Below, piece after piece: positions 11,612-59,509 of a DNA stretch of 64,000 nt; within the stretch, counting starts at the first letter, position 1; every line of letters begins with the position of its first letter. The DNA comes from Bacteroidota bacterium (GTDB lineage: Bacteria; Bacteroidota; Bacteroidia; JABDFU01): positions 1 to 64,000 of the forward strand of contig JACPDY010000023.1 of NCBI GenBank assembly GCA_016183775.1, read 5' to 3'. The notes beneath the pieces were generated by a model that worked only from the letters and a program-made list of their open reading frames with translations, made no database searches and was not told the DNA's origin. The translations under genes were made by a program, and so were the position numbers.

Positions 11612-14600
11612 TTACGGCGCTGTAAGATTAACATTTATACTGCATCCGTTCTTATCAGTAATATTTACCGAATATGCGCCCGGACAAAGCTGGTTTTTAT
11701 ACCGGTTGGTATATCCACCCGAGGCGGGCCAAGCATAGTTATATGGATTTGTGCCACCCGAGCCGGTAACCATGATCCATTCTTTGCATCCGCAGCCTGT
11801 ACAATTGGCGGTTCCTTTTGTAAATTGACCCGCTAAAGGCTGAGGCGAAATTATTGCAGTAGTAGAAGTGGCAGTACAGCCTTTCGAATCAGTAACAGTT
11901 ACCGAATAATTGCCAGCAGGAAGACCAGTGGCGGTTTGCGTGGTTTGCCCGTTACTCCAATTGTAAGTATAAGGTGAGGTGCCGCCTCCTGGATTTGCGA
12001 TAACACTTCCATCGGTACCGGCGTTGCAGGTTATGTTAGTTGGTGCGGCAGTGATAGCAACAGATGCATTTACCGTTACAGCAGCAGTGGAGATGGCAGT
12101 ATTTCCTCCCGCATCGGTTATTGTGACCGTATAAGCGGTGGTTGATGAAGGACAAGGGTTAATATTTTGCGTGGTTGCACTATTGCTCCAAGAATATGTG
12201 TATGGTAATGTTCCATTACTGCCGCTTGCTGATACAGTAGCACAAGCTCCCGAACAGATACTTGCTCCGGTAGCCAATGCAGTGATACCGCCACAAGAGG
12301 TAACAGTTATATATGATGTTTTTATTAAACTATCCTTTTTGCAAGTTGTAGTAAGAGTTAGCTGTACACTATAGTTTCCGGCTATTGGATAGCTAACTAT
12401 TGGATTTATAGCTGTAGAACTTGCCGGATTACCGCCTGTAAATGTCCATTGAAATTTATATCCCGAAGTATCGCAGGAATTACTTACCGTTGGTGTAAAT
12501 GTAACAGGAGCATTAACACATACGGCAGTTGCGCTGGCAGAATAATTTAAGCCAAGCACCTTAGCTTCACATAGATTAATACACAGCTGCCTGATAAAGG
12601 CATCGGAAGCTCCCCAGGTACCAACAACGCCACCAAACACTGTTTGAAAAGCACCTGCTGTTACGGGGTAATTTCCATGAGTAAAACCTGTAAGGTATAA
12701 TATATTACCATCTATAGTAATTGTATTCCCATAATTATCCGCGTCATCTTCAAGGTTCCCACCCATATACGTTATACAGCGCTGCTTTCCACCGGGATCA
12801 TATTTTGCTATATACTGATCTTCATTTTCGTTTACCGGGCCGCCGCCAAAAGCAGTTTGATAAGCACATGGACTGATGGGATAATTCCCGGGACCCTGGT
12901 CCTCAAAATCTCCGGCGATATATATATTATTATTCCCATCGGTAGCTATGCCCCAAACATATTCATTGACATTTCCTCCAAGATAAGTTCCCCATTGACG
13001 AACTCCTGCGCTATTAAATTTAACCACATACGTATCAATATTAAGTCCGCCACCACCATTGCTTACCTGGTAAGCTCCAGCGGAAGAGATTCCGGTCATT
13101 GAATTGGTAACACCACTTAATATTACATTACCAAGGCCATCACATGTGTTCATACATGTGTAATACTCCTGAGCCGTTCCTCCATAGTAAGTGGCCCATA
13201 ACCGGGCTCCTGCTGAACTAAATTTAAATAAAAACCCATCGTAAAATCCGCCCGCAAAAAGAGGCTGGTGACAACCTGGAGAAACAGGAAAATTTGCTGA
13301 AGTCGTTATTCCTGATAAGTAAATGCTTGCTGTAACGGTATCATAAGAGATGCCACCATTTCCCCAATTTTCTCCACTGGAACCACCTACATAGCTGCCC
13401 CAGGTACGGTTTCCAATGGATGTAAATTTTACCAGAAAAACATCTCCGAACCCGTTAAGTGCTACTTGAAAAGCACCTGCAGTTGAAATACCAGTGGTTG
13501 AAGACGTAGAGCCATATAAATAAATATTTGAACCATCAGTAGCAACATCATAACCAGAATCCCCGCCGGTACTTCCGTAATAAGTGCCCCATAGCCTTAG
13601 TCCTGCCGGAGAAAATTTGTAAAGGAAAGCATCACTTGAACCACCTGTTGCACTTTGGTACAACACATTTCCTGCGGATGCACCAACTGGGAAATTGGTT
13701 GATCGTGTAGTTCCGGCCACTAATATATTACCAAAGTTATCTGAAGCAACTCCTGTAGGTCCTTCGCTGCCTGATCCTCCCAGGTAGGTTGCCCATAACA
13801 TGGTGCCGCCTGAATTCATTTCTACTATAAATGAATCATAAATACCAACACCGCCGCCGCCAAAAACTGTTTGAAAAGCACCTACAGTAACAGGTAAGCC
13901 AACTGAGGCAGTTTGTCCCGTAAAAGCTACATTACCTGAAATATCCGTTGTTACAGAACAACCAAAATCCGGATCACTCCCACCGTAATAGGAAACCCAG
14001 GGATCGATCACTAAAGGAAATGAAGAATTATAAATAGAAAATGAAAAATTAATAATTACCTCCCCTGCGGATATTCGGGTTAAGACATATGTTGTTTTTA
14101 TATCAATAATCTTCCCATTAATATTTTGATACACCTTAGGTATGGATTCATAAAATTCGTTCAGGCTGGTTTTGACAACTAAATTTCCTGCGCGGTTAAT
14201 GTGTATGTCTTCCGCGCCTGTCCAGTGTAGTTTTATCTGGTTAGCGTCTGCGTTTGGTTTTACAATGATGTTGTACTTTAATCCGTTTTCCTGGTTACCA
14301 TAATAACTTACATCGATGTTGTTATAAATATTTGTATAGGTTACCTTATTGTATTGCTTTACATGTGTTACTCCCATAGGACAATGGCCATAGTAATAAT
14401 TGTTGTACCCTTCCACTTCATCTTCATTGACAAAAGTTAGATTTTTATTTCCCGCCTGTTCTGAAGTTATATCATTCGTTAATATTGCAGAAGATGGGTG
14501 AGTGGGCAAACAATTGACAAAGTCCATATCGATCCTGTGTATTTTCAATGTTTGCTTTTGAATTACCTCATATTTCCCATGCTGTTCATTAGCTTGGTCA

Positions 14601-14962
14601 AGAGGAGCTGAAGCTTCTTTTTTCAGTTTTTCTGCCTGTTCTTCTGCATCATGCATTACTTCTCCCATGTTGGTAAATACATAACTTAAACCTGTTTCAC
14701 GCAGATATATGTTCGACCCACCTCCATTGGCTTTGTATAATATATCCGGACGAAATTTGCCATTCATATCCGCTATTTGTCCTTTGTTTGGGGTGAAACG
14801 CAGGCCATTTCCGCGTTGGCTTTGGGCAGGTTGCTTCTTCGCCTCAGTTGTATTTTTACCTAAATTGGTATTGGCCCCTACATAATTCACAAAAAGTAGC
14901 GACTGTAGTACAGAAATATATAATATGTTTTTAAGCGCAGTATTAAAATTTGAATTTTTCAT
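11612..14962 (-). CDS. Secreted DUF7948-like/SBBP-propeller/PKD/SprB protein with Cys-rich C-terminal module
   Basis: This 1116-residue protein has a signal peptide (about 1-31). An N-terminal domain resembling DUF7948 follows (about 55-325; TPNKGQ, DILYKA, IDPWVSYYGG). SBBP beta-propeller repeats (about 325-805) carry the recurring WATYYGG / GNVxxTGxTxSxNFPV pattern. Then come a PKD-like domain (about 815-900), two SprB-like units (about 900-1040) and the shared C-terminal module (about 1044-1116: NCTGCGCKEW, NRYKNQLCPG, DKNGC, LTAP). Neither a type A nor a type B T9SS sorting domain is present. It is divergent from the helical-family gene at 15180 (217-bp gap), with which it may share a control region. 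Its function is unknown; a cell-surface role is inferred from architecture. Confidence 0.88.
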   Translation of the reverse strand: MKNSNFNTALKNILYISVLQSLLFVNYVGANTNLGKNTTEAKKQPAQSQRGNGLRFTPNKGQIADMNGKFRPDILYKANGGGSNIYLRETGLSYVFTNMGEVMHDAEEQAEKLKKEASAPLDQANEQHGKYEVIQKQTLKIHRIDMDFVNCLPTHPSSAILTNDITSEQAGNKNLTFVNEDEVEGYNNYYYGHCPMGVTHVKQYNKVTYTNIYNNIDVSYYGNQENGLKYNIIVKPNADANQIKLHWTGAEDIHINRAGNLVVKTSLNEFYESIPKVYQNINGKIIDIKTTYVLTRISAGEVIINFSFSIYNSSFPLVIDPWVSYYGGSDPDFGCSVTTDISGNVAFTGQTASVGLPVTVGAFQTVFGGGGVGIYDSFIVEMNSGGTMLWATYLGGSGSEGPTGVASDNFGNILVAGTTRSTNFPVGASAGNVLYQSATGGSSDAFLYKFSPAGLRLWGTYYGSTGGDSGYDVATDGSNIYLYGSTSSTTGISTAGAFQVALNGFGDVFLVKFTSIGNRTWGSYVGGSSGENWGNGGISYDTVTASIYLSGITTSANFPVSPGCHQPLFAGGFYDGFLFKFSSAGARLWATYYGGTAQEYYTCMNTCDGLGNVILSGVTNSMTGISSAGAYQVSNGGGGLNIDTYVVKFNSAGVRQWGTYLGGNVNEYVWGIATDGNNNIYIAGDFEDQGPGNYPISPCAYQTAFGGGPVNENEDQYIAKYDPGGKQRCITYMGGNLEDDADNYGNTITIDGNILYLTGFTHGNYPVTAGAFQTVFGGVVGTWGASDAFIRQLCINLCEAKVLGLNYSASATAVCVNAPVTFTPTVSNSCDTSGYKFQWTFTGGNPASSTAINPIVSYPIAGNYSVQLTLTTTCKKDSLIKTSYITVTSCGGITALATGASICSGACATVSASGSNGTLPYTYSWSNSATTQNINPCPSSTTAYTVTITDAGGNTAISTAAVTVNASVAITAAPTNITCNAGTDGSVIANPGGGTSPYTYNWSNGQTTQTATGLPAGNYSVTVTDSKGCTATSTTAIISPQPLAGQFTKGTANCTGCGCKEWIMVTGSGGTNPYNYAWPASGGYTNRYKNQLCPGAYSVNITDKNGCSINVNLTAP

Positions 14963-15179
14963 GATGCAAATTAGACTTTCCTAAAGTGTAAATTTAAACC
15001 AGAAATCATAATATATCAATCAATATTTAATGGAAGGTAATGTTCTTAATAGTAGTTATAATCCATATTATGCATAAAAAATAGTAAAATTGAATATATA
15101 TCTATAAATATTATATCATAGGTAAGGTCTTTGAAAACAAATTACTATGTTTATACATCTACTATTTCTTTAATAAATT

Positions 15180-16715
15180 ATGCAATCCCCATCCGATAAA
15201 TTATTTCACCTGATCAAATCCCTTAATGCTCACGAAAAACGCTATTTCAAGATGCAGCGATCGAGAAGTAAAAGTGGTAATAGTTATATCAATCTTTTTA
15301 ATGCAATTAATAATCAGACAATATATAACGAATTGTCGCTTAAGCAGCAGTTTAGAAATAAGCATTTTAAAGTTATGAAGGGCTATTTGTTTCAGGCTGT
15401 ATTAAAATCGTTATCGGATTATCATCGTACAGATTCTGTCGAAAGTGAATTGCAACAATTACTTCACCAGACTAAATTGCTTGAGAGAAAAAAACTGATC
15501 GAAATTGCGCTTAAATTATTAATAAAAGCTGAAAAATTGGCCGCTGAAAACGAGAAACATGAGTATTTGATATTGATCGTCTTTTTAAGAATAAATATCA
15601 TACGAAAATCTGAACTGCAGGAAAGGATGAAAAATTATCTGATGACTGATGCAGTTAAAATAAATGATTATATAAGGCATGTTAAAAATCATTTTGATTT
15701 ACAAAAGTTAAGAGTTATGGTGAAATTGATAAATGACAAGGGTATAGGTAACTCAAACAAGGTTGACAGAAATACTTTAAAATCGATAATGAAGTCACCT
15801 TTATTATCATCGTCTAATAAGACACTGACCTTTTCATCATTACAAACAACTAATTTCATCCGTTTTGTCTGTTCCAATGTCCTTAACAAATGGGATGACC
15901 GATTATATAAGAAGCAAAAAGGGTGGTTGGATTATATAGAAAGACGCAATTTGAAGTTTCCAAAAGCAATGGACGCGGGAAATTACTTAGGTGAATTATC
16001 AATTTTTATGATAGTTCAAATTAAAACTAACCGAACGGAAGAAATTGAACAAACATTTGATAAGGGGCAGGCATTTTATGCATCATTGCCATTAAAAATG
16101 AAGGATGGTCGATTAATCGAAATGTTTACGAACCTTACGCTTAACTATATGGGCGGTCAACTTGATTTAATTAAACCAGATAAGGTTATAGAAGCTCATT
16201 CTAGTCTAAAGAAAAAAATATCGCAACGCACTGTGAGCAACAGTTCGGGCATATGTTTTAACTTATGTTACAGCTATTTTTTATTAACCAATTATCGTCA
16301 AACATTATTTTATGCAAATCAAATTTTAAACAAAAAAGATAGTGCGAGGCTGGATATTCAAAAAAAGGTAAGACTGCTTTTTTTATTGGCACATTTTGAA
16401 CTGGGTAATTATGATCTTTTGCCGGGCATATCAAAATCTGTATTGAGATGGGATTTAAAAAACAACCTACTGAATGATTTTGAAAAAACAGCATTAAACT
16501 TTTTTTTAAAGGAAAAGATATGGCCAAATAACAGGAACGAGCGTATAAATACTTTTAAACAACTTCAGCAGAACATGTCCTTGATCCATGACAGGAATAA
16601 AGAATCGTTCCTTGCACAGGAGTTTGATTTTATTTCATGGCTTGAAAGTAAAATTCAAAACAGACCATTTGCGGAAATAATGCGTGAAAAGGCAAAAGTC
16701 ATCAAGGTGCGGTAA
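15180..16715 (+). CDS. Cytoplasmic helical-repeat family protein, copy 1 of 4
   Basis: This 511-residue protein of unknown function has no signal peptide or membrane segment. The sequence is Lys/Leu-rich and looks alpha-helical, TPR-like. It shares both ends with three other genes here (25401, 46099, 53014): the N-terminus has the pattern LFxLIKSLxxxEKRYFK, then YxxLFxAI and an LKSLxxY helix, and the C-terminus reads FDFISWLESKIQNRPFAEI. It is divergent from the secreted gene 11612-14962 and overlaps the 3' end of the convergent gene 16702-21078 by 14 bp. Repeated association with secreted giants suggests a regulator, chaperone or secretion partner, but nothing in the sequence proves it. Confidence 0.85.
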   Translation: MQSPSDKLFHLIKSLNAHEKRYFKMQRSRSKSGNSYINLFNAINNQTIYNELSLKQQFRNKHFKVMKGYLFQAVLKSLSDYHRTDSVESELQQLLHQTKLLERKKLIEIALKLLIKAEKLAAENEKHEYLILIVFLRINIIRKSELQERMKNYLMTDAVKINDYIRHVKNHFDLQKLRVMVKLINDKGIGNSNKVDRNTLKSIMKSPLLSSSNKTLTFSSLQTTNFIRFVCSNVLNKWDDRLYKKQKGWLDYIERRNLKFPKAMDAGNYLGELSIFMIVQIKTNRTEEIEQTFDKGQAFYASLPLKMKDGRLIEMFTNLTLNYMGGQLDLIKPDKVIEAHSSLKKKISQRTVSNSSGICFNLCYSYFLLTNYRQTLFYANQILNKKDSARLDIQKKVRLLFLLAHFELGNYDLLPGISKSVLRWDLKNNLLNDFEKTALNFFLKEKIWPNNRNERINTFKQLQQNMSLIHDRNKESFLAQEFDFISWLESKIQNRPFAEIMREKAKVIKVR

Positions 16716-19700
16716 GACTGACACTTGCATTGCACCCGTTTTTATCCCTGATATTTATAATATACATTCCAGGGCATAGATGATTCTTATACCTGTTCAC
16801 ATATCCATCAGGCCAGGTATAGCTATACGGACTTGTGCCGCCTGTTGCATTTACCATAATCCATTCTTTACACCCGCAGCCCGCACAGGCGGCAGTTCCT
16901 TTAGCAAATTGACCTGCCAGAGCGGAAGGAGAAATTACAGTAGCTGTTGAAACGGATGTACAGCCTTTGTTATCTGTTACTGTTACAGTATAGATCTGAG
17001 ATGTGAGATTTGAGATCTGAGATGTTGTAGCACCCGTACTCCAGTTATAGGTGAATGCGGGACTGCCACCGGCGGCGGCGGCAGAGACTGAGCCGTTTGC
17101 ACTTCCGTTACAGGGTATATTTGTAGCGGTTGCAGTAACAGTTACAGCAGGATTTATCGTTACAACTGCTGTTGAAGTAGATGTGCTGCCACCTGTATCT
17201 CTTATTGTTACTGTATATGTGGTAGTTGTTGCAGGACACGGACTTATGTTTTGTGTTGTTGCACTATTGCTCCACGAATAAGTATATGTACCGCTGCCAC
17301 CCGACCCACTGGACGTAACTGTGGCGCAGGAGCCGGGGCATACTGCACTGCCGGTGGCCGTGACTGAAGGACCAGTACAATTAATAATAGTAATATTATT
17401 TATTACTTTGTTAGTGCACCCGGCACTGCCAACTGTGTGTTCAACACTATAAGTACCAGTCGTTAAAAAAGTATAAGAAAAATTTGTTGTTGTTCCGCTT
17501 ACATTTGCAGGTGTTATTGGAGAAACAATCCAATTATATGTAACTCCAGTCCCGGGTGGGGTTCCCGTATTTGTAAAACTTACAAGTGAGCCAATACATG
17601 CAGAAGAATATGTAAATGTTGCTGAAACGGGACTTGTGCCCGTTACGTTTGCAACCCGGGTTGAAGTACATCCTATACCATCTGTTACAGTAATTGTATA
17701 AGCGCCAGCTACGAGTCCTGTGATCTTTGTACTGTTTCCAATTGAAACCAGATTACCTGTAGATCCATTACTCCAGCTATAGGAAAAAGAAGGCACGCCT
17801 CCCGTTACAGAAAGTGTTGCCTCACCACTTGCTGTACAACTTATACTTGTAGTTGTTACACTTGCAGTAAATGCGGGAGGAAGACTCAATCTCATTGTTT
17901 GACTAGTGGTACAACCGCCCTGATCCCGAACCGTTACAGTATAGTTACCAGGAACTAAACTTGTTGCACCTTGCGTAGTCTGACTGCTACTCCATGTATA
18001 TGTATAGGAAGGCGTTCCATTGAATGCATTGGCAGTGACTGAAGCTGTATTTGGAGGACATGACCACTGCGGGGCAGATAGTCCTGCCAATAAGGGCAAG
18101 GGTTGTGTAATGGTTACTGATGTTACCGATTTACATAAACCCTCTGTAACAGTCACAGTATAAGTTCCGGAAGTTAACCCCGATATCTGAGAGGTGAGGC
18201 TGTTTGTATTTGAATTCACACCATTACTCCAGCTATAGGAATATGGGCCACCCGCACCATTGCTGATAGTTACCTGCGCGCTGCCGTTGTTGGATCCATT
18301 ACAAGTAACATTAGAAGTTACACTTGTTACCACTGTCATGTTACAGCTGCAATTGGTTACTGTTATTACTTTTGATACAGAATCACGGCTGCATACGCCA
18401 TCAACCACCAAAGACACGGTAAATGTACCCGGAGCAGAATAGCTGATATTGTTCGGATCTTGCTGAGTGGAGGTTGCAGGTGATGCTCCCGGAAAGTACC
18501 ATTTATAGAGCTGACTTTTAGTATCGCAAGTAATCGTGCTGGTTACTGATGAAGTAAACTGAGCAACAGAATTACTGCAGATGCCGGCAGGAGTATTAAA
18601 ATTTGCAGTAGTACTATTAGTGGCTCCACAACTGTTACCACAAAATTTTCCAACAACTGCATCTCCTAATCCATTAGCCGCTGATCCTCCTCCGTATGTT
18701 GGTTGCCAGGCATTGGCAGTAACAGGAAAACCTCCGCCTGTTCCACCTGCCACATATACGTAATTTTGATAAGTAGCAATACCGCCGCCCAGATCAAGGT
18801 CATCCTCAATTACATTTCCTCCAATAAACGTACTGCAAATACGCTCACCGGTTGGTTTGAATTTAGTAACAAACCAATCTTCTATTCCTCCACCATACAC
18901 GGGTTGAAGCGCACAGGTATTCATTGGAAAATTGCCGTAACCCTGATCTTCAAAGTCACCAAGAATATAAATATTCCCGTTATTATCGGTAGCGCAGTAA
19001 TATCCCACCTCCATTTGGTTCCCCCCATGATAAGTGGCCCATAAACGCTGTCCTGTAGGCGAAAACTTTATTACAAAAGCATCGTACGATCCGCCATTAG
19101 AACCCTGATAAACAACATTGCCAGCACTCGCCCCGATTGGAAAATTTGTCGAATAAGTCATTCCGGAAATTACCACATTGCCCGAAAGGTCAATTGCTAC
19201 ATCATGCCCTCCATCATGTCCGCTCCCTCCATAATAGGTAGCCCACAAGCGTATTCCATTGGGAGCAAATTTCACAACAAAAGCATCCCCGTCATTTGCA
19301 AACGTGGCACCTCCAAAAGCTGTTTGAAATACACTATTACCGGCAGTTGCTCCAACAGGAAAATCAGTTGATCTTGTATTTCCGACAATTACAATGTTAT
19401 TTGAAAGGTCAACGGCAATTCCGTAGAATGGCCAAAGGCTATTCTCCGCTCCACTTCCTCCATAATAGGTTGCCCATATACGCAAACCGGTAGGGTTAAA
19501 CTTCACCACAAAGGCGTCTGTACCTCCCGCGGAAGAGTTCTGAAATATGCTATTTCCGGCAGTTGCACCCAAAGGAAAATTGATTGAAGCTGTTGTTCCT
19601 GTGATAACAATATTTCCACCCGATTCCGTTACTATATCGGCACCCGAATCACTTGCTCCTCCTCCATAAAACGTAGCCCATAAACGGGCCCCCGTTGGAG

Positions 19701-21078
19701 AAAACTTAACCACAAAAGCATCTCCGTAAGAGGAGCTTCCTGCGATGTCACCATACGTTGACTGAAATACCGTATTGCCGGCGGTTGCCCCTACAGGAAA
19801 ATTTGCGGAGTTTGTTAAGCCTGTGATCAACACATTGCCTGATGGATCGGCAGTTATTCCGTATCCATAATCGTAATTATTTCCACCATAGAAAGTAGCC
19901 CATAGTCTTGCTCCTGCAGGAGAAAATTTTACCACATAGGCATCTTGTGCCGAAGATCCGACACCTCCGGTAAGGCTTCCCTGAAATACCGTCGATCCTC
20001 CCACAGGAAAATTTGCGGAAGAGGTATAGCCTGTGATCAGCGCATTTCCATTCGCATCTACAGCAAGGCTTGTGCATGCTTCCTGATTATTACCTCCATA
20101 ATAAGTTGCCCATGCCCAGGGGTCAATGATCAGGGGGTAAGAAGGGTCGTATGTATCAACAGAAAAAGAAACAAATGCCTCATTCAGTTCCTGATGTTTT
20201 TCCCTTGAATTCAAACCCAAAACATATTTTGCTTTGATGTTTACTACGTTTCCGTTTATTAGCTGATAAACCCTTGGGATACTTTCTTCCATAGTGCCCA
20301 CAGATGTTTCAACTAAAAGATTTTGCCCCCTCATTTTTATACTTTCAAATCCTGAATACTTCAACTTTATCAGGTCCGGATCGGCGCCGGGGTTCACTAC
20401 AATATCATACTTTAATCCTCCTTCTTTACCTCCATAATACTTTACATCAATATTGCAGTAAATATTTTTTACGGTCACTTCATTATAGGAATTTACATTG
20501 GTGATGCCTTGTGGACAGTGTGGATAATAATAATTTGAATACCCTTCAACCTCTTCGGCTGTTTGAGTTTGAGCATTAGGGTTACAACCATAAAAATCCA
20601 CATCAACACGATGCAGCTTTGTAGTTTTCATTTTTAAAAGTTCCCGCATCCTTTCCTGTTCAGATTGATCCCCGAATCCACCCGATCTTTCCAACTCCTC
20701 AATCTCTTCATGCACGTCATGCATTACTTCATCCATATTACTTTGCACATAGCTGATGCCTGTTTTACGTAAATAAACATCTGCTCCCTTACATTCTCCT
20801 TTATATAAAACATCGGGGCGGAGTTGATTCTTCACATCAACGATCTGACCTTTGTTTTGTGTAAAGTTCATCCCGGAACCGCGCAGTGAAGCGCTATGCG
20901 ACTGAGCTTGTGGGCTACCTTTACCAATAGCCTGCTGTGCAAAGCCTTTACCAATAAATAAAGTTACAACCAAACAAAACCCTGCTGCCATCAATAAAGC
21001 AGAACGAAAGGCGGCAGACAATAATTTTTTTTCCTTTTGAACATAGCGTGTATAATTCTCAACTCTCAATATATCCAT
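16702..21078 (-). CDS. Secreted DUF7948-like/SBBP-propeller/SprB protein with Cys-rich C-terminal module
   Basis: This 1458-residue paralogue of 11612-14962 and 21105-25253 has a signal peptide ending near GKGFAQQ (about residue 48). A DUF7948-like domain (about 70-320; TQNKGQIVD, KTGISYV, EVMHD, IDPWAWATYYGG) precedes at least seven SBBP propeller repeats (about 321-813) and a PKD-like domain (about 833-910). Several SprB units, another PKD/Ig-like unit and more SprB units lead to the shared C-terminal module (about 1387-1458; CAGCGCKEW, WPDGYVNRYKN, LTAP). It follows 21105-25253 by 26 bp, so the two are probably co-transcribed. A heptamer tandem repeat lies in its coding sequence (16997-17024). 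No canonical T9SS sorting domain is seen. Surface display is inferred. Confidence 0.88.
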   Translation of the reverse strand: MDILRVENYTRYVQKEKKLLSAAFRSALLMAAGFCLVVTLFIGKGFAQQAIGKGSPQAQSHSASLRGSGMNFTQNKGQIVDVKNQLRPDVLYKGECKGADVYLRKTGISYVQSNMDEVMHDVHEEIEELERSGGFGDQSEQERMRELLKMKTTKLHRVDVDFYGCNPNAQTQTAEEVEGYSNYYYPHCPQGITNVNSYNEVTVKNIYCNIDVKYYGGKEGGLKYDIVVNPGADPDLIKLKYSGFESIKMRGQNLLVETSVGTMEESIPRVYQLINGNVVNIKAKYVLGLNSREKHQELNEAFVSFSVDTYDPSYPLIIDPWAWATYYGGNNQEACTSLAVDANGNALITGYTSSANFPVGGSTVFQGSLTGGVGSSAQDAYVVKFSPAGARLWATFYGGNNYDYGYGITADPSGNVLITGLTNSANFPVGATAGNTVFQSTYGDIAGSSSYGDAFVVKFSPTGARLWATFYGGGASDSGADIVTESGGNIVITGTTASINFPLGATAGNSIFQNSSAGGTDAFVVKFNPTGLRIWATYYGGSGAENSLWPFYGIAVDLSNNIVIVGNTRSTDFPVGATAGNSVFQTAFGGATFANDGDAFVVKFAPNGIRLWATYYGGSGHDGGHDVAIDLSGNVVISGMTYSTNFPIGASAGNVVYQGSNGGSYDAFVIKFSPTGQRLWATYHGGNQMEVGYYCATDNNGNIYILGDFEDQGYGNFPMNTCALQPVYGGGIEDWFVTKFKPTGERICSTFIGGNVIEDDLDLGGGIATYQNYVYVAGGTGGGFPVTANAWQPTYGGGSAANGLGDAVVGKFCGNSCGATNSTTANFNTPAGICSNSVAQFTSSVTSTITCDTKSQLYKWYFPGASPATSTQQDPNNISYSAPGTFTVSLVVDGVCSRDSVSKVITVTNCSCNMTVVTSVTSNVTCNGSNNGSAQVTISNGAGGPYSYSWSNGVNSNTNSLTSQISGLTSGTYTVTVTEGLCKSVTSVTITQPLPLLAGLSAPQWSCPPNTASVTANAFNGTPSYTYTWSSSQTTQGATSLVPGNYTVTVRDQGGCTTSQTMRLSLPPAFTASVTTTSISCTASGEATLSVTGGVPSFSYSWSNGSTGNLVSIGNSTKITGLVAGAYTITVTDGIGCTSTRVANVTGTSPVSATFTYSSACIGSLVSFTNTGTPPGTGVTYNWIVSPITPANVSGTTTNFSYTFLTTGTYSVEHTVGSAGCTNKVINNITIINCTGPSVTATGSAVCPGSCATVTSSGSGGSGTYTYSWSNSATTQNISPCPATTTTYTVTIRDTGGSTSTSTAVVTINPAVTVTATATNIPCNGSANGSVSAAAAGGSPAFTYNWSTGATTSQISNLTSQIYTVTVTDNKGCTSVSTATVISPSALAGQFAKGTAACAGCGCKEWIMVNATGGTSPYSYTWPDGYVNRYKNHLCPGMYIINIRDKNGCNASVSLTAP
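16997..17024. repeat. Four tandem TGAGATN heptamers inside coding sequence
   Basis: Units TGAGATG, TGAGATT, TGAGATC, TGAGATG lie in the 3' part of 16702-21078, where on the coding strand they encode SQISNLTSQ in the middle of an SprB unit. Seven is not a multiple of three, so gain or loss of one unit would shift the frame and remove the C-terminal module. A matching array is at 21400-21427 in the neighbouring paralogue. Confidence 0.85.
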
Positions 21079-21104
21079 TTTTAAAATAGTTTTCTATGTA
21101 ACAC

Positions 21105-24100
21105 TCAGGGTGCCGTTAAACTAACATTCACACTGCACCCATTCTTATCTTTTATATTTACAAAGTAAGAATTCGGACAAAGCCTGTTCTTATACCTGTT
21201 GGTATATCCATCCGGCCAGGTATAACTATACGGGCTTGTGCCGCCAGTAGCATTTACAAGGATCCATTCTTTACACCCGCAATTTATACAGTTAGCCGTG
21301 CCTTTGGTGAACTGTCCGGTTAAAGCCAGCGGTGATATTATTGAGGCAGTAGAAGTAGCAACACAACCTTTTGAATCAGTTACTGTAACTGTATATATCT
21401 GAGATGTGAGATTTGAGATTTGAGATGTGGTAGCACCCGTACTCCATGTATAGACATAAGGGAAACTGCCACCGCCTACTGCCGCTGCCGCTGAACCATT
21501 TGTTCCTCCATTACAGGATATATTCGTTGCAGTTGTAGTGACAGTTACAGCAGGATTTACTGTTACAACTGCTGTTGAAGTAGATGTGTTGCCACCGGCA
21601 TCTCTTACTGTTACTGTATAAGTAGTTGTAGACACGGGACAGGGAGCTATGTTTTGCGTTGTAGCTCCGGTACTCCAGGAATAGGTATACGGAGCAGTGC
21701 CGCCTGAGCCACTCGATGTTACTGTAGCGCAGGAACCAGGACACACTGAACTGCCTGTGGTTGTTATGATTGGACCATTACAGTTAACTACTTTTACTAC
21801 CTGCGTTATCCTGGAATAACAAACTCCATTACCAACCATGGTATCAATGTCGTGGGTAATATTATAAGTTCCTGCGGTCAAAAAAGTATATGAAAAATCG
21901 ACAGTGCTTCCACTTACATTGGCAGGAGTTATTGGGGAAATAAGCCAGGTGGTATAAGAAGCACCCCATTTGGACCCTGTAACATTTCCGGTATTTATAA
22001 AATTTACAGCTGTTCCGACACAAACTGTACCGGAAGGTGATATTGTAAAGGCTGCTGAAACAAATGGAGTTGACCCTGTAATATTAAATGTACTTGTTGC
22101 GGTACAGCCATTGCTTTCGGTAATAGTTACAGTATAACCTCCGGCAGCAAGGCCACCTATGGAATTTGTTCCACCCCAGCCATTACTCCAGCTATATGAA
22201 TATGGTGACACTCCGCCACTCGGAGTAACAGTAGCAACAGCCCCTGATGAAGAAGGACAGGAAATATTAGTACTTGTTTTTGCTATTTTAAGAGTTGATT
22301 GATCGACTATAGTAACCATAGATGATGCCGAACAAGCTCCATCAATGACTGTAACAGTATAATTTCCAACAGTAAGACCGGTTGCAACAGAGGATGTCTG
22401 ACCATTGCTCCAGTTATAGATATAAGGCCCTCCGCTGCCACTGCTTACAGTGGCAGTTGCGCTACCCAATTTATTGCCATTACAGGTAACGTGCGCTGTG
22501 ACCCCCGCATTGGCCATGACAGTGCATACGCAGGAAGAAAGCACTTTTGTAATACTATCTTTCTTACAAATTGTTGTAAGTACGAGTTTAGCCGTATAAT
22601 TTCCAGAAGCAGAATAGGTAACGACAGGCTTAACAGCAGTAGAACTTGAAGGGTTTCCGCCGGGAAATGTCCATTGAAATTTATATCCAGTAGTGTCGCA
22701 TGAATTGTTCACAACTGGCGTAAAAGTAATTGGTACACCGGCACATACTTTTGAAGGACTGGGAGTAAAATTCAGACCAAGGACTTTTGCTTCGCAAATA
22801 TTTATACATAGTTGAGCAATGTAAGCATCCCCTCCTCCATAACTGGCACCTCCTCCCCCTCCAAAGTCTGTTTGAAAGGCGCCTGACGTAACGGGGAATC
22901 CTAACATAGCGGGCCATGCCGGCCCAGCTGTGCTGCCCGCTACATATAAGTAATTTCCGAATATGGAAATGCCTACTCCCCCCTCTTCCAGGTCTTCTTC
23001 TCCGTCACCTCCCAGATTTGTTGTGCAAAGATATGAGCCGGTAGTACTGAATTTCGCGATGAATTCATCTTCTCCTCCCGCAGCATTACCGCAATTGGGC
23101 TGGTAAGCACAGGATGAACGGGCAACACAATTGTCTTCCATCTCTCCGAAAATATAAATATTGCTGTTGCTATCCGTAGAAATATCAGAAATCCACTCAC
23201 CGCCTGAACCAAAATAAGTTCCCCATTGTCTTGTTCCTGTACTATTGAATTTTACAAGGAACGCATTTGTTGAAGAACCAGCCAATGCTGTTTGATACGC
23301 CCCTCCTGTTGCGATGTTGTTTGGAGAACTTGTACATCCTGAAATATAAACGTTTCCCGACTTATCGCATGCCACGGCGCCTCCCGCTCCGTTAGTACGA
23401 TACGATGTAGAGCCGGCGTAGTTATCATTTGTCCCTGAACCTCCGTAATATGTAGCCCATAAGCGGGCACCGGCAGGATTAAATTTAAACAGGAAGGCGT
23501 CCTGGCCGCCTCCGGCCAAGGCCATTTGATGGCCTGCAAAAGTCGGGAAGTTTGTCGACCAGGTACAACCTGTTAGATAAATGTTGCCGGAAATATCGCA
23601 GGCAATGCGACCTTCCCAATCATAATTACTCCCTCCCACATAACTTGCCCAAATGCGATTGCCGTTTGCCGCAAATTTCACTACAAAAACATCCTGCACA
23701 CCCACAAATGCAGATTGAAAAGAACCTGCTGTTGAAATACCATTTAAAGATTTAGTCTCACCGTACAAATAAACATTATTTCCATCACTGGCAAGATCGC
23801 CACTAAAATCCTTATCAGTGCCCCCATAATAAGTGGCCCATAAACGCATACCTGCCGGATTTAATTGCAACAAATACGCATCAAGTACACCAGCAAATGA
23901 ATTTTGATGCACAACATTGGCACCTGACGTACCTATCGGCAAATCTAATGACGTTGTTTGACCTGACACTGAAATATTTCCGGCAGCATCAGTGACAACG
24001 CCATGAGCGTAATCACCTTCAGTACCGCCGTAATATGTAGCCCAAAGACGATTTCCGGCCGGATTCATTTTTACCACAAAAGCATCAATGTTGGCACTGT

Positions 24101-25253
24101 AATGATTGCCAGGTTTGATTATAAGGGAAGTCTGAAAAGCGCCAACAGATATTGGAAAAGCATACGAATATGTTTCTCCCACAAACGCCACATTACCTGA
24201 AGGATCATTAGTAACTGCATGTCCCCATTCATTACTTTCGCCGCCATAATAGCTTACCCAGGGATCGATGATTAAAGGGAGTTCCGGGTTCCAGGCCAGC
24301 CGGCCGTCAGGCATGGTTTCAAGTTCAAAGTTCACAGTTGTACCGTTAAGGATATACCGGGCTTTAACATCAACAACTTTACCATTTATATTTTGATAAA
24401 CCTTTGGCATATACTCACCAAGCCGTCCAATACTTGTTTCAATTATTAGTGTTTCTTCCAATCCATCGGGATCAATTCTTAATTCCTTTGCTCCACTGTA
24501 TTTTAGTTTTATTTGATTGGGATTGCCTCCAGGATTTACCACTATATCGTATTTTAACCCATTTTGTTTGCCGCCATAATATTTCACATCTATGTTATTG
24601 TAAACATTTTTTATTGTTACCTCATTATAAGAATTAACATTGGTTATGCCCTTTGGACAATGTGCATAATAGAAGTTAGAATAACCTTCTAATCGCTCTT
24701 TTACAATTGTCCGGGGGCTCAGATTTCCATTTACAAAGTCAATATCAATTCTGTGTATTTTCTGAAGGAGTTCCTTTTCCACTTCTTCATTTACCGGTTC
24801 TGCATCCGTAATACTATTTTGTGCACCACCGGGCATACTATTCTTCATACGCTCCTCAGCCTGTTCATGCATTTCATGCATTACTTCTCCAATATTGCTT
24901 TGAACGTAACTGATCCCGGTTTTGCGGATATATATATCGGCTCCTCCCCCATCTCCTTTAAATAAAATATCAGGGCGTACTTTGCCGGCCATATCAACGA
25001 TCTGTCCTTTGTTTTGGGTAAAGTTCATTCCGGCTCCACGCAGGGAAATATCAGGCGCCTGAGTTTGTTGATCGCCTTTGCCAATAGCTCGTTGTGCAAA
25101 ACTGCTTTGAATAAAAAGAATGGAAACTAAACAGAGTCTAACCGAAATAAATAAAACAAACCGAAGGCTGGCAGGCAATAATTCTTTTCCCTTGCGAATT
25201 TGATCTACGTAATTTTTATTTGTCAAGTGATTTTGTTTTGATATTGTATGCAA
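21105..25253 (-). CDS. Secreted DUF7948-like/SBBP-propeller/SprB protein with Cys-rich C-terminal module; uncertain start
   Basis: This is a 1382-residue protein. A hydrophobic stretch near residues 32-52 ending SSFAQR is the likely signal peptide. A DUF7948-like domain (about 75-328; TQNKGQIVDM, KTGISYV, EVMHEMHE) precedes SBBP propeller repeats (about 328-818), a PKD-like domain (about 831-904), SprB units, a second PKD/Ig-like unit and the shared C-terminal module (about 1311-1382; CINCGCKEW, NRYKNRLCP, LTAP). The first in-frame start is a TTG at 25253. An ATG at 25267 is one base out of frame across a run of seven T, so the start may be phase-variable or affected by an indel error. It leads the 16702-21078 gene (26-bp gap) and is divergent from the helical-family gene at 25401. 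Confidence 0.85.
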   Translation of the reverse strand: MHTISKQNHLTNKNYVDQIRKGKELLPASLRFVLFISVRLCLVSILFIQSSFAQRAIGKGDQQTQAPDISLRGAGMNFTQNKGQIVDMAGKVRPDILFKGDGGGADIYIRKTGISYVQSNIGEVMHEMHEQAEERMKNSMPGGAQNSITDAEPVNEEVEKELLQKIHRIDIDFVNGNLSPRTIVKERLEGYSNFYYAHCPKGITNVNSYNEVTIKNVYNNIDVKYYGGKQNGLKYDIVVNPGGNPNQIKLKYSGAKELRIDPDGLEETLIIETSIGRLGEYMPKVYQNINGKVVDVKARYILNGTTVNFELETMPDGRLAWNPELPLIIDPWVSYYGGESNEWGHAVTNDPSGNVAFVGETYSYAFPISVGAFQTSLIIKPGNHYSANIDAFVVKMNPAGNRLWATYYGGTEGDYAHGVVTDAAGNISVSGQTTSLDLPIGTSGANVVHQNSFAGVLDAYLLQLNPAGMRLWATYYGGTDKDFSGDLASDGNNVYLYGETKSLNGISTAGSFQSAFVGVQDVFVVKFAANGNRIWASYVGGSNYDWEGRIACDISGNIYLTGCTWSTNFPTFAGHQMALAGGGQDAFLFKFNPAGARLWATYYGGSGTNDNYAGSTSYRTNGAGGAVACDKSGNVYISGCTSSPNNIATGGAYQTALAGSSTNAFLVKFNSTGTRQWGTYFGSGGEWISDISTDSNSNIYIFGEMEDNCVARSSCAYQPNCGNAAGGEDEFIAKFSTTGSYLCTTNLGGDGEEDLEEGGVGISIFGNYLYVAGSTAGPAWPAMLGFPVTSGAFQTDFGGGGGASYGGGDAYIAQLCINICEAKVLGLNFTPSPSKVCAGVPITFTPVVNNSCDTTGYKFQWTFPGGNPSSSTAVKPVVTYSASGNYTAKLVLTTICKKDSITKVLSSCVCTVMANAGVTAHVTCNGNKLGSATATVSSGSGGPYIYNWSNGQTSSVATGLTVGNYTVTVIDGACSASSMVTIVDQSTLKIAKTSTNISCPSSSGAVATVTPSGGVSPYSYSWSNGWGGTNSIGGLAAGGYTVTITESNGCTATSTFNITGSTPFVSAAFTISPSGTVCVGTAVNFINTGNVTGSKWGASYTTWLISPITPANVSGSTVDFSYTFLTAGTYNITHDIDTMVGNGVCYSRITQVVKVVNCNGPIITTTGSSVCPGSCATVTSSGSGGTAPYTYSWSTGATTQNIAPCPVSTTTYTVTVRDAGGNTSTSTAVVTVNPAVTVTTTATNISCNGGTNGSAAAAVGGGSFPYVYTWSTGATTSQISNLTSQIYTVTVTDSKGCVATSTASIISPLALTGQFTKGTANCINCGCKEWILVNATGGTSPYSYTWPDGYTNRYKNRLCPNSYFVNIKDKNGCSVNVSLTAP
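21400..21427. repeat. Four tandem TGAGATN heptamers inside coding sequence (second array)
   Basis: Units TGAGATG, TGAGATT, TGAGATT, TGAGATG occupy the equivalent position in the last SprB unit of 21105-25253 and encode the same peptide as the array at 16997-17024. The two arrays are paralogous or homogenised. Confidence 0.85.
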
Positions 25254-25267
25254 AAAAATTTGGGCAT
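25252..25267 (-). other. Homopolymer T7 between an out-of-frame ATG and the reading frame
   Basis: On the minus strand an ATG (25267-25265) is followed by CCC AAA and seven T (25258-25252). With seven T the ATG frame ends after 14 codons. With eight T it would join in frame with the large gene 21105-25253. Slippage here could switch the protein on or off, or the base count could be an assembly error. Confidence 0.5.
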
Positions 25268-25295
25268 CCTTGTTTTATAAAGATATAAAAGGCCC

Positions 25296-25309
25296 TTTGA
25301 CAAGTCAAA
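25296..25309. promoter_or_regulatory. Palindrome TTTGAC-AA-GTCAAA in a divergent intergenic region
   Basis: A perfect 6-2-6 inverted repeat lies midway in the 147-bp gap between the divergent genes 21105-25253 and 25401-26945. Position and symmetry suit a dimeric regulator's operator. The same sequence was not found in the other two divergent gaps, so a shared regulon is not supported. Confidence 0.35.
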
Positions 25310-25400
25310 TCATAACAATCCTAAAGTAAATGATATGATATATTTTTTTTAAAGTGATATTGTCAAAAATAGTTTATTTTTATACTACAATAGATAAAAA

Positions 25401-26945
25401 ATGAAAACCCCTTCCGACGAACTTTTCCAATTGATAAAGTCACTTACATCCCAGGAAAAAAGATGCTTTAAGCTCAATTTTGATATAAAAAAGCCTAAAA
25501 GTAATTTTATAACTCTTTTTGACGCTATTGATTCTATGGGAGCTTATAGCGAATCTGAACTTATAAAAAAGTTGAAAAAAACGGGTGGAATTAAGAACCT
25601 GAAACAAGTCAAAAGTCAATTATATGATAAAATTGTTGTCGCCATCTCAATTTATGCGAACGATTCGTCCGTAAAGAGAAAGATCCAAAACCTGATCCAC
25701 TACTCTGAATTATTATTAGAAAAATCACTGTACCGCTCATCCATACACTATCTGTTAAAAGCGGAAGCTTTGGCTATTGAACATGAACAATATCCTTACT
25801 TACTATCTATAAGTTATCTCAAAGCATCACATGCCCGGCATCTGAACATAAAAGACGGAACAGCTGTGATCATTGATAAAGAAACAGCGGCTGAAAAAAA
25901 ATACATTCATTCCATCCAAAACACAATTGAGTACAGGAATATATGGCTCGGGGTAAGTAATATTTACAGCCTGTACGCTGATAATTTAAAAAGTGTTGCA
26001 TTATTAAAAAAAGTGAAACACATTTCAGATCTACAGCTGATAAAAAACAAAAATCTTGCACAAACTTATTTATCGAAGAACTACTATTATGACACCAGGC
26101 ATCTTATAAATATGTTAACCGGAAAGTGGAATAATTCTTCGTTCGATCTGCAAAACGAATTCGTAAAATATCTTGAACAGCAGCCGGACCTCCTGTTTTC
26201 AAGAGCCTCAAATTACATAACTGCACTATCGCGTGTTATTACCACATTAAACAAAATAAACCGATCCGATGAGATAGAAGTTTTTTTTAATAAGGCGAGT
26301 GGTTTTTTTATTTCACTCCCTACTAAAAAGAAAAGCAGAAATTTAAGCTCGTATTTCGCAGGGGTGATATTAGCAAATTATATGGACGCCCAATTAATAT
26401 TATTACACCCTGAAAAAGCCATTGACTCCTGGGAAAAAGTAAAAAATGAAGTACACAAGGAGATGCCTACAACCGGTGCCGACCTGGTGGTATACATAAA
26501 CCTGTTTTTAGGTTATTTCTATTTATCAAAGTATCGCGAAGCCCTCCAAAACCTGAACATCGTCATTAATTTCAATAAGCCAAACCGTATCGATATCCAG
26601 GCGGATGCAAGGTTGTTTATTCTAATTCTTCATTATGAGTTAGGCAATACCGATCTTTTACCAAACCTAACGAGGGCCTCAAAGAATTTTTTGCAGAAAA
26701 ACGGGTATTATACCGAATTTGCAAACGTGATAGTTGTATTTTTTGAAAAAGAAATTCATTCAGGCAAAACAAAAAACTTCAATTCATTTGTTCTCCTTAA
26801 AACTAAACTATCCGCCCTGATTAAACATCGCGAAGCAAAAAAAGCAATGGAATACTTTGATTACCTATCCTGGATCGACAGTAAATTAGAGAACAAGCCA
26901 TTCATAGAAATCCTAAGAAAAAAAGCTCTTCAAAAAAACACTTGA
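25401..26945 (+). CDS. Cytoplasmic helical-repeat family protein, copy 2 of 4
   Basis: This 514-residue protein of unknown function has no signal peptide or membrane segment. The N-terminus (PSDELFQLIKSLTSQEKR) closely matches the copy at 15180, and the C-terminus has the family signature FDYLSWIDSKLENKPFIEIL. The middle is Leu/Lys/Tyr-rich and probably TPR-like helical hairpins (for example LLKAEALAIEHEQYPYL). It is divergent from 21105-25253 with 147 bp between starts. It is the most divergent of the four copies in the N-terminal third. Role unknown; a gene-specific regulator or secretion partner is possible. Confidence 0.85.
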   Translation: MKTPSDELFQLIKSLTSQEKRCFKLNFDIKKPKSNFITLFDAIDSMGAYSESELIKKLKKTGGIKNLKQVKSQLYDKIVVAISIYANDSSVKRKIQNLIHYSELLLEKSLYRSSIHYLLKAEALAIEHEQYPYLLSISYLKASHARHLNIKDGTAVIIDKETAAEKKYIHSIQNTIEYRNIWLGVSNIYSLYADNLKSVALLKKVKHISDLQLIKNKNLAQTYLSKNYYYDTRHLINMLTGKWNNSSFDLQNEFVKYLEQQPDLLFSRASNYITALSRVITTLNKINRSDEIEVFFNKASGFFISLPTKKKSRNLSSYFAGVILANYMDAQLILLHPEKAIDSWEKVKNEVHKEMPTTGADLVVYINLFLGYFYLSKYREALQNLNIVINFNKPNRIDIQADARLFILILHYELGNTDLLPNLTRASKNFLQKNGYYTEFANVIVVFFEKEIHSGKTKNFNSFVLLKTKLSALIKHREAKKAMEYFDYLSWIDSKLENKPFIEILRKKALQKNT

Positions 26946-46098: not shown

Positions 46099-47634
46099 TT
46101 AAACCAGGTCTTTCCCCCTGATTTTATTTTGCACTTTTCCCTGAACTATCCTGGCGAATGACTGACCTGTGAATTTCGATTCAATCAAAGAAAGAAAATC
46201 AAACGCTTCAATGATTTGCTTTTCCGCAGGATCCTTGATGATCTCGTTTAATTTTTGAATCGTTATTTGTAATAATTGATGCATCAGCTGTTTATCAGAA
46301 TTTGCCGAAGGATACTTTCTGATAAAATCCAGCATAAGGCTTAATCCTTTTGGAAATGATTTACGTTGTGTCCGGGTGACCGACCTCAATGAGAATTCAA
46401 GCAATTCAAAATTTTTCAATTCAAGGAATACGAACAACTTGATAATTTTTAAGATCATGATGTATAATTTAGAAGTTGTTTTTGATTCAATGTCCAGCGC
46501 TTTATTTATCCACAAGAGCGCTGCTTTATAATCTCCGCATCCAAAAAGCACGTAAGCGGTATTAAAGTAGAATACAAGCTTCATATTATAGGGGGTCACA
46601 GCATCATACTTTTTTAATTCTTTTTCGATATATGGAATTGATTTTTTTTCTTCTTCAAACGTGCCAAAATAGGTAGATTGATCTTGTTGAGTCATATAAG
46701 CAAATTGAAATAATTTTGCCTGAATGTGAAGAGAATTACTGGAAATTGATTTTAGTTTATTGATAAGCTCCGACATGAACCCGGCTTTCTTTACATTATG
46801 TGCGTTTAATAACATAATATTATGCAGGAGAACCAGATAATCAGATACATTGTCTTTGATAAAATGCGGCTTGGATTCCCATAATTCCATATTTTTAATC
46901 AGGTAATCGTCAGCTTTATCATCGGCAAGTAAATATCTTTTCCGGCCGTTGGAAAAATAAAAATTCGATTTGTCGTAAAAAGTCTGCGCGTGTTTTATGT
47001 CCGTTAAAAACGGATGGCGAAATAATTCCTGTACTTTTTTTTGATCCAGGGCAGCAGTTTGCTCCGAAAGGGCTGTATAAAAATAAGTTTCGTTTGAAAG
47101 TTCCTGATAGGTCAGGCTATTCGCCAGAATAGCCAATACCCTTTTCTGCTCTTTAACAATTTCTTTCATTTCGTTGGCATCTCCCTGTATCGCAATAACT
47201 AAATTGATCTCAGATTTAAGCAGAATATAATATTCAGAATACATTTCATATTTCAAAACTATCTTCTTGGTACTGGAAATAAGAGATCTGCATTGATTGT
47301 ATAATCCCCTCTGATATAAAATATGGATATCTGCGATGAGGTTTTTTACTTCCATGGAAGTATTGTCGCCATGGTGATAGTTTCTCAGACTTCGTAAAAT
47401 AAGCTTATAGAGGTAATGCTTAATGGATGACAGATTTTTCGAGATCGATTTTTTCTTCAGGGCTTCCGCAAGTTTATCATCATCATAGGTGCGTTGTTTT
47501 TGAAGGATGTTGAATAATTCGAGGTAATTATTTTTCTTATTTCTGTCGTGAAGGAAAGCAAACTTTTTTAAATAAATCTTTTCTGACTTGGAAAGGGATT
47601 GGATAAGTTCAAATAATTTTTTATTGTTTTGCAT
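46099..47634 (-). CDS. Cytoplasmic helical-repeat family protein, copy 3 of 4
   Basis: This 511-residue protein has no export signal. The family N-terminus (KKLFELIQSLSKSEKIYLKK), the following YLELFNILQKQ and LYKLILRSLRNYHHG helices, and the C-terminal FDFLSLIESKFTGQSFARI signature are all present. It is closer to copy 4 (53014) than to copies 1 and 2, sharing LYKLIL+SLR.Y and ILY.RGL. Unlike the other three it is not divergent from a secreted giant. It lies 32 bp downstream of the choice-of-anchor L gene on the same strand, suggesting one transcript. Confidence 0.85.
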   Translation of the reverse strand: MQNNKKLFELIQSLSKSEKIYLKKFAFLHDRNKKNNYLELFNILQKQRTYDDDKLAEALKKKSISKNLSSIKHYLYKLILRSLRNYHHGDNTSMEVKNLIADIHILYQRGLYNQCRSLISSTKKIVLKYEMYSEYYILLKSEINLVIAIQGDANEMKEIVKEQKRVLAILANSLTYQELSNETYFYTALSEQTAALDQKKVQELFRHPFLTDIKHAQTFYDKSNFYFSNGRKRYLLADDKADDYLIKNMELWESKPHFIKDNVSDYLVLLHNIMLLNAHNVKKAGFMSELINKLKSISSNSLHIQAKLFQFAYMTQQDQSTYFGTFEEEKKSIPYIEKELKKYDAVTPYNMKLVFYFNTAYVLFGCGDYKAALLWINKALDIESKTTSKLYIMILKIIKLFVFLELKNFELLEFSLRSVTRTQRKSFPKGLSLMLDFIRKYPSANSDKQLMHQLLQITIQKLNEIIKDPAEKQIIEAFDFLSLIESKFTGQSFARIVQGKVQNKIRGKDLV

Positions 47635-49805: not shown

Positions 49806-49814
49806 GCTGTTTAC

Positions 49815-49845
49815 CAAAATTACAATAATTTATCAGCAAAATCAA
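49815..49845 (-). promoter_or_regulatory. Candidate Bacteroidota promoter for the choice-of-anchor L gene
   Basis: On the minus strand a TTG (49845-49843) is followed after 20 bases by TAATTTTG (49822-49815), matching the Bacteroidota -33 TTG / -7 TAnnTTTG pattern. The -7 element ends 9 bp before the ATG at 49805, which would leave almost no leader. The match could be chance in AT-rich DNA. Confidence 0.3.
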
Positions 49846-54591: not shown

Positions 54592-54746
54592 CGAAAATTT
54601 ATTCTAGATTATATAAATATCTGATAAATAGATAAATATACAAAAAATCTTGCGCATCAATTTTTAATAATTGAAGTGTTTTTTATTTGTCTTCCCTTCA
54701 TTTAATTAGTAAATTTCGTTTGATACATTTCTTAACAGATGTGACG

Positions 54747-59441: not shown

Positions 59442-59509
59442 CGCTTAAAAATAAGGCCGCCAATTTCCTGAAAAACAAATCGGTTCAGTTTGTTGAGAAT
59501 AAAGGACAA

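Follow-up and report, generated by a model that had tools for sequence, protein, structure and literature searches.

The stretch of DNA analysed here, called the window, comprises 64,000 nucleotides of the genome of a Bacteroidota bacterium. It encodes four homologous proteins that are probably cytosolic regulators resembling RusR, each controlling the transcription of the operon divergent from its own gene. This interpretation is favoured because RusR is the nearest characterised relative and because some members of the family are divergent from operons for cytosolic proteins. Weighing against it are the lack of a recognisable DNA-binding fold and of an operator shared among paralogues, scores far under the cut-off of the BT_2802 family, and RusR-type genes at three loci that share the strand of the ribokinase they precede.

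Genes of the window

The genes and their partners are listed below. The three shared intergenic regions were delimited from the sequence.

15180..16715, plus strand: RusR-like TPR protein 1, 511 aa, divergent from the gene at 11612-14962
14963..15179: shared divergent intergenic region, 217 bp, with presumed promoters and operator
11612..14962, minus strand: secreted giant, divergent partner of protein 1, 1116 aa, DUF7948, SBBP, PKD and SprB, conserved tail
25401..26945, plus strand: RusR-like TPR protein 2, 514 aa, divergent from operon 25253..16702
25254..25400: shared divergent intergenic region, 147 bp
21105..25253, minus strand: cargo gene 1 of operon 25253..16702, 1382 aa, TTG start as called, DUF7948, SBBP, PKD and SprB, tail
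16702..21078, minus strand: cargo gene 2 of operon 25253..16702, 1458 aa, DUF7948, SBBP and SprB, tail
46099..47634, minus strand: RusR-like TPR protein 3, 511 aa, exceptional in lying on the same strand as a secreted gene, 32 bp downstream of it
47667..49817, minus strand: choice-of-anchor L protein with T9SS type B sorting domain, upstream of gene 46099-47634
53014..54591, minus strand: RusR-like TPR protein 4, 525 aa, divergent from operon 54687..63253
54592..54746: shared divergent intergenic region, 155 bp, counted up to the partner's start at an internal Met
54687..59441, plus strand: cargo gene 1 of operon 54687..63253, 1584 aa ORF, DUF7948 and SprB giant, tail
59510..63253, plus strand: cargo gene 2 of operon 54687..63253, 1247 aa, DUF7948-type head and tail

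The sequence-only reading had described four genes for proteins of about 511-525 residues, and all four are present at their coordinates, with lengths of 511, 514, 511 and 525 residues. The N-terminal and C-terminal blocks that it had regarded as shared are found in every one of them, in the forms LFxLIxSLxxxEKxxxK and FDxxSxxxSKxxxxxF, and the proteins can be aligned from end to end with 21-31% identity. It was also correct about the start gaps, which are 217, 147 and 155 bp, the last of them using an internal Met of the 54687 ORF. Three of the genes had been described as divergent from DUF7948-like/SBBP genes, and DUF7948, SBBP, PKD and SprB domains were indeed identified in these partners. 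The apparent operon of the remaining gene with a choice-of-anchor L protein was borne out as well by the common strand, the 32 bp spacing and the T9SS type B sorting domain. At the edge of the window, positions 1-89 of the minus strand match a group II intron end (Rfam group-II-D1D4-2, 56 bits).

Two further claims did not survive. The pairing is not one-to-one, since second cargo genes are located at 16702-21078 (starting 26 bp downstream of cargo gene 21105..25253 on the same strand) and at 59510-63253, and the latter is followed just past the window end by a third tail-bearing gene with its tail at C23:67288. Nor does the family have four members; the genome holds about 80-90.

Relationship to RusR and metabolic partners

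Searched against Pfam and the PDB sequences, the four window proteins yielded weak TPR scores and nothing more. A single known family was recognised, NCBIfam BT_2802_fam (NF058569, 'ribose utilization protein'), whose 502-aa model is matched by all four with E-values of 1e-30 to 1e-42 and with coverage up to protein residues 2-509 against model positions 3-502. The resemblance is homology and not chance, because all four proteins match one model over its length. The scores of 107-145 bits lie below the curated cut-off of 550, and the window family is a distant expanded relative of the BT_2802 family, not a member by score. We take BT2802 to be RusR because of the name that NCBIfam gives the family and because its locus number adjoins those of the rus operon. 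RusR is reported to control this operon for ribose utilisation, BT2803-2809 of Bacteroides thetaiotaomicron, and is regarded as a regulator of transcription (PMC12596196).

A match above the BT_2802 cut-off was found in only one of 198 genomes (G109). The gene of this member, at locus L156, is divergent from ribokinase, which is followed by ADP-ribosylglycohydrolase, nucleoside hydrolase and a permease. Three more high-scoring members (L157-L159) are likewise followed by ribokinase, and at L157 also by a permease and ADP-ribosylglycohydrolase. At these three loci the RusR-type gene precedes ribokinase on the same strand, so that divergence is not universal. The members at L156-L159 form a single clade with support of 100 in the family tree, and it is these, not the window genes, that adjoin genes of ribose and nucleoside utilisation, the setting in which RusR is reported to act.

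A second metabolic association is with leucine biosynthesis. Members are divergent from leuA-leuC-leuD at L278:429-5807 and, in the genome of the window itself, from leuA at C126:47193-50074; these are probably regulators of leucine operons. A Bacteroidales group faces a gene for a LeuD/aconitase-swivel-like protein of about 175 residues with no leucine operon around it (L243, L245, L246, L251, L259, L260, L275, L287 and L288, at about 5150-5840). The type of partner follows the family tree: the leucine label, which in this test was also carried by the LeuD/aconitase-swivel-like group, requires 3 changes compared with 9.9 in shuffles, and the distinction between secreted and other partners requires 33 compared with 48.7. 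Beside ribokinase and leucine operons a local regulator makes sense, while a protein handling type IX export does not.

Structure of the proteins

The AlphaFold (AF2) model of protein 1 (15180..16715), calculated with an alignment of 75 rows, is all-helical (pLDDT 87, pTM 0.84). It consists of a five-helix unit at residues 1-82 followed by a TPR-like superhelix. A Foldseek search with the full-length model returned generic TPR matches only, for example LGN/Pins and MalT domain III. The N-terminal unit modelled alone has a pLDDT of 85, and a fold search of the PDB with residues 1-89 gave no significant match, the best E-value being 2.9. The likeness of this unit to M2-1/VP30 was set aside, since these matches are weak, with E-values above 2. 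A helix-turn-helix was recognised neither by Pfam in the four proteins nor by the PDB fold search with residues 1-89. Of the two kinds of fold that the sequence-only reading had proposed to look for, the TPR-like one is therefore predicted by AF2 and Foldseek, and a DNA-binding one was not recognised.

The first 86 residues are basic, with a mean net charge of +5 and conserved residues K13, K20, R21, K24 and K67, of which K20, R21, K24 and K67 are near-invariant. Identity among paralogues is 45% at residues 1-30 and 476-500 compared with 16% at residues 146-340. This profile fits an arrangement in which the two ends form a common output module and the middle provides a locus-specific sensing surface.

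The family in its own genome

The profile of the four proteins gives 93 matches in the 4.54-Mb assembly. The census was made by reading about 1.0 Mb of the neighbourhoods of family genes; 91 genes or gene pieces belong to the family and the N-terminal part is present in 81 of them, giving a family size of about 80-90 genes. A divergent gene lies directly upstream of 76 of the 81 N-terminally intact members, while three have a same-strand neighbour and two are at a contig end. As a background, only 33 of 331 other neighbouring gene pairs (10%) are divergent. Regulator and divergent gene are separated by a median of about 190 bp, with the 10th and 90th percentiles at 112 and 349.

The sequence-only reading had proposed counting secreted neighbours, and most members do have one: about 66 of the 76 divergent partners are secreted. 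A DUF7948-type head, the conserved tail or both are found in 54 of the 76, and 11 more carry the TIGR04183 sorting domain, one of them (C43:6852) behind a spurious 64-aa ORF. The exceptions include the non-secreted LeuA (C126) and two FeeM-like N-acyl amino acid synthases. The latter, divergent from the RusR-like genes C2:61762 and C93:37017 (loci L063 and L104), are related to enzymes of signal-molecule synthesis.

The cassettes also occur in tandem arrays (for example on C19, C133, C43, C78 and C142), and some family genes are split or truncated (C89:9125, C88:11838, C133:8592 and C76:18349), which suggests birth and death of cassettes. A regulator with the AraC-type HTH_18 domain was not found in this genome; the same model matches 9 of 14 control genomes.

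The family across the phylum

Members were found in 110 of 198 genomes of the same class and in 43 of 148 genomes of a sample of the phylum, mostly in one to few copies. Larger numbers are reached in other genomes with 16-23 copies and in a sister species with 41. In a scan of named genomes, the matches belong to Bacteroidota (Saprospiraceae, Flavobacteriales and Bacteroidales), Ignavibacteria and a Kapaibacterium. In two families of genomes, f54 and f78, most of the complete genomes have one conserved copy of the RusR-like gene, whose partner there could reveal the ancestral target.

The geometry is the same elsewhere. At roughly 100 loci outside the own genome, divergent orientation is seen in 123 of 139 upstream neighbours compared with 158 of 998 in the background, and the median gap to the upstream neighbour is 193 bp. 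The C-termini of 116 upstream partners match T9SS type A in 63 cases, type B in 7 and type C in 5, and about 60% of upstream neighbours carry a type IX sorting domain; among downstream neighbours a type A match is found in 11 of 131 (8%). The association of the family with secreted operons is phylum-wide.

These data also bear on neutral hitch-hiking, in which an abundant gene pair would simply have been duplicated together with no functional link. The tandem cassette arrays and the split or decayed copies are what such a process would leave. However, the same layout is found with unrelated secreted partners at about 100 loci of distant genomes, and orthologous regulators are retained where the cargo has been replaced (see below), which makes this explanation very improbable.

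Cargo proteins and their tail

About 145 genes of the own genome carry the conserved tail and are arranged in operons of one to three. At lengths above 1,000 residues each, these giants are estimated to occupy roughly half a megabase, more than one tenth of the assembly. The DUF7948/SBBP/SprB giants end in ..SYSWPDGYVNRYKNQLCPGTYTINIKDKNGCSVNVNLTAP-stop and have no recognised T9SS sorting domain. In the window this tail is located at the 3' ends 11612, 16702, 21105, 59441 and 63253. It spans about 45-90 residues and is nearly confined to the genus (G000, G002 and G003). Over its last 45 codons the amino-acid identity is 71% compared with a third-position identity of 49%, so that the tail must be under constraint at the protein level; the same values rule out recent gene conversion as the source of the alike tails. 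The tail may serve in sorting or anchoring, possibly as a new signal derived from a SprB repeat.

The genome encodes the T9SS sortase PorU and has at least 150 type A sorting domains and 61 CHU_C matches. A T9SS sorting domain is present in the choice-of-anchor L partner of the window, whereas the DUF7948/SprB giants have the different, conserved tail in its place.

The cargo is large, variable and secreted, with repeats and tandem arrays, as would be expected if the family were the immunity or antitoxin partners of polymorphic secreted toxins, and one very weak profile match to the structure of an immunity protein was obtained (E 0.1). Such a role can hardly be credited. No toxin domain was found in the cargo examined, the C-terminus is the most conserved part of the cargo, which is the reverse of polymorphic toxins, the family gene is divergent and upstream instead of downstream, and metabolic partners exist.

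Shared intergenic regions

A k-mer search upstream of the 81 members revealed no operator shared among paralogues. Some words are enriched in these 81 upstream regions, for example GTCAAAT in 16 compared with 3.4 expected. Words of this type were dropped as an operator, their positions being scattered and partly inside the coding sequence of the partner. Each paralogue may have its own operator. The region 54592..54746 shows block conservation with the sister species, and leaders in the shared intergenic regions are conserved between orthologues.

The conserved leaders, together with a basic N-terminal unit of no known DNA-binding fold, would also suit a post-transcriptional regulator that uses this unit to bind either ribosomes or the divergent mRNA at its 5' leader and so sets the translation or stability of that mRNA. 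We consider this distinctly unlikely: RusR is described as transcriptional, divergence is the usual layout of regulators that act at shared promoter DNA, and the intron end mentioned above is the only structured RNA family in the window.

Evolution of the paired genes

Within the genome, the distances among 47 regulators and among the DUF7948 heads of their partners are uncorrelated (Mantel r 0.055, with 814 of 5000 permutations as high), and a smaller earlier comparison of 16 pairs found by regex likewise gave no correlation. The correspondence of trees expected of a co-evolving one-to-one cargo partner, a possibility raised by the sequence-only reading, is thus absent. Comparison of the own genome with a sister species shows about nine orthologous regulators whose cargo is still orthologous, with 70-90% identity. 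For the window gene at 53014 the regulator is 74% and the cargo 82% identical.

At three other loci (C5:4027, C56:16412 and C1:5956, corresponding to L303, L301 and L310 of the sister species) the regulators are 86, 84 and 67% identical but the cargo only about 36-46%, being closer to other paralogues. The intergenic sequence on the side of the regulator is conserved at all three, and at C56:16412 the promoter and the signal-peptide end are kept while the cargo body is replaced. The cargo at the three loci has been replaced or exchanged in mosaic fashion behind a fixed regulator. Such swapping argues against a regulator that physically recognises its own cargo one to one.

It is here that a cytosolic export chaperone must be considered, one for each cargo, whose TPR groove would take the nascent giant or its signal peptide to Sec or to the type IX system. 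Peptide binding is common among TPR folds, the partners are for the most part very large secreted proteins, and the genes adjoin. However, the layout is divergent and not co-operonic, about 85 genes would have to serve about 145 giants, some partners are cytosolic enzymes (LeuA and ribokinase) and a homologue belongs to a ribose operon. Given these cytosolic targets, the uncorrelated distances and the conserved regulators whose cargo has been replaced, a role as chaperone or export partner is unlikely. The dedicated partner suggested by the sequence-only reading is therefore retained in part: dedication to a secreted operon is strongly supported, both in this genome and through the phylum, and among the roles it listed that of a regulator is favoured and that of a chaperone or export partner is not.

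Proposed mechanism and its significance

For the favoured reading as a transcriptional regulator, the following mechanism can be proposed. The protein would be cytosolic, with the basic five-helix N-terminal unit followed by the TPR superhelix, and would control transcription of the operon that starts across the shared intergenic region of about 110-350 bp. The conserved ends, namely the N-terminal unit and the C-terminal FDFxSWxESK block, may contact DNA, RNA polymerase or both, while the variable TPR middle may bind a signal particular to each locus, either a metabolite or a peptide. Presumably the result would be transcriptional activation, as for RusR. After amplification at the level of the genus, about 80-90 regulators would serve about 145 giants and other type IX cargo, and the surface-protein operons could thereby be expressed individually.

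A broader reading is quite possible, although we hold it with less confidence: that these proteins are an undescribed phylum-wide family of local regulators lacking a helix-turn-helix and built of a basic five-helix unit and a TPR sensor, with RusR as the sole characterised member, which act as the standard controllers of type IX operons and have exploded here to about 80-90 for about 145 exchangeable giants occupying more than one tenth of the genome. If this is true, the genome holds an expression repertoire of surface proteins in which the regulators stay fixed and the cargo is exchanged. The open-licence papers searched contained no account of such a regulator paired with a secreted operon.

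To our knowledge, how Bacteroidota choose among their many type IX surface proteins is largely unknown. One family that marks the heads of operons across the phylum would provide a handle on this question, as the target can be read from gene order. The expansion (about 80-90 regulators and about 145 giants in 4.5 Mb) would, as far as we know, rank among the largest repertoires with one regulator per operon. RusR, so far an orphan with no recognised DNA-binding domain, gains a large family and a structural model.

Comparison with known systems

The window cargo has the same domains as the known DUF7948/SBBP/SprB-repeat secreted proteins and T9SS type A and type B cargo of Bacteroidota. It differs in that the DUF7948 giants end in a genus-specific tail and not in a recognised sorting domain.

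The TPR-type superhelix, presumed to be a sensor, resembles that of MalT and of the RRNPP regulators with HTH and TPR domains (PlcR, Rgg and PrgX). In contrast to these, no HTH was detected, the five-helix N-terminal unit has no match in the PDB, and no sequence homology was found. Judged by the model, the RusR-like family lies outside the HTH and TPR regulators by fold.

The closest comparison is with RusR (BT2802) of Bacteroides thetaiotaomicron. The window proteins share with it full-length homology over about 500 residues and the same N-terminal and C-terminal blocks, and in both cases the gene stands at the head of the operon that it controls or would control, as with the G109 member divergent from ribokinase. 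They differ from it in reaching only 107-145 bits against 550, in having secreted giants as partners instead of ribose genes, and in being present in about 80-90 copies instead of one.
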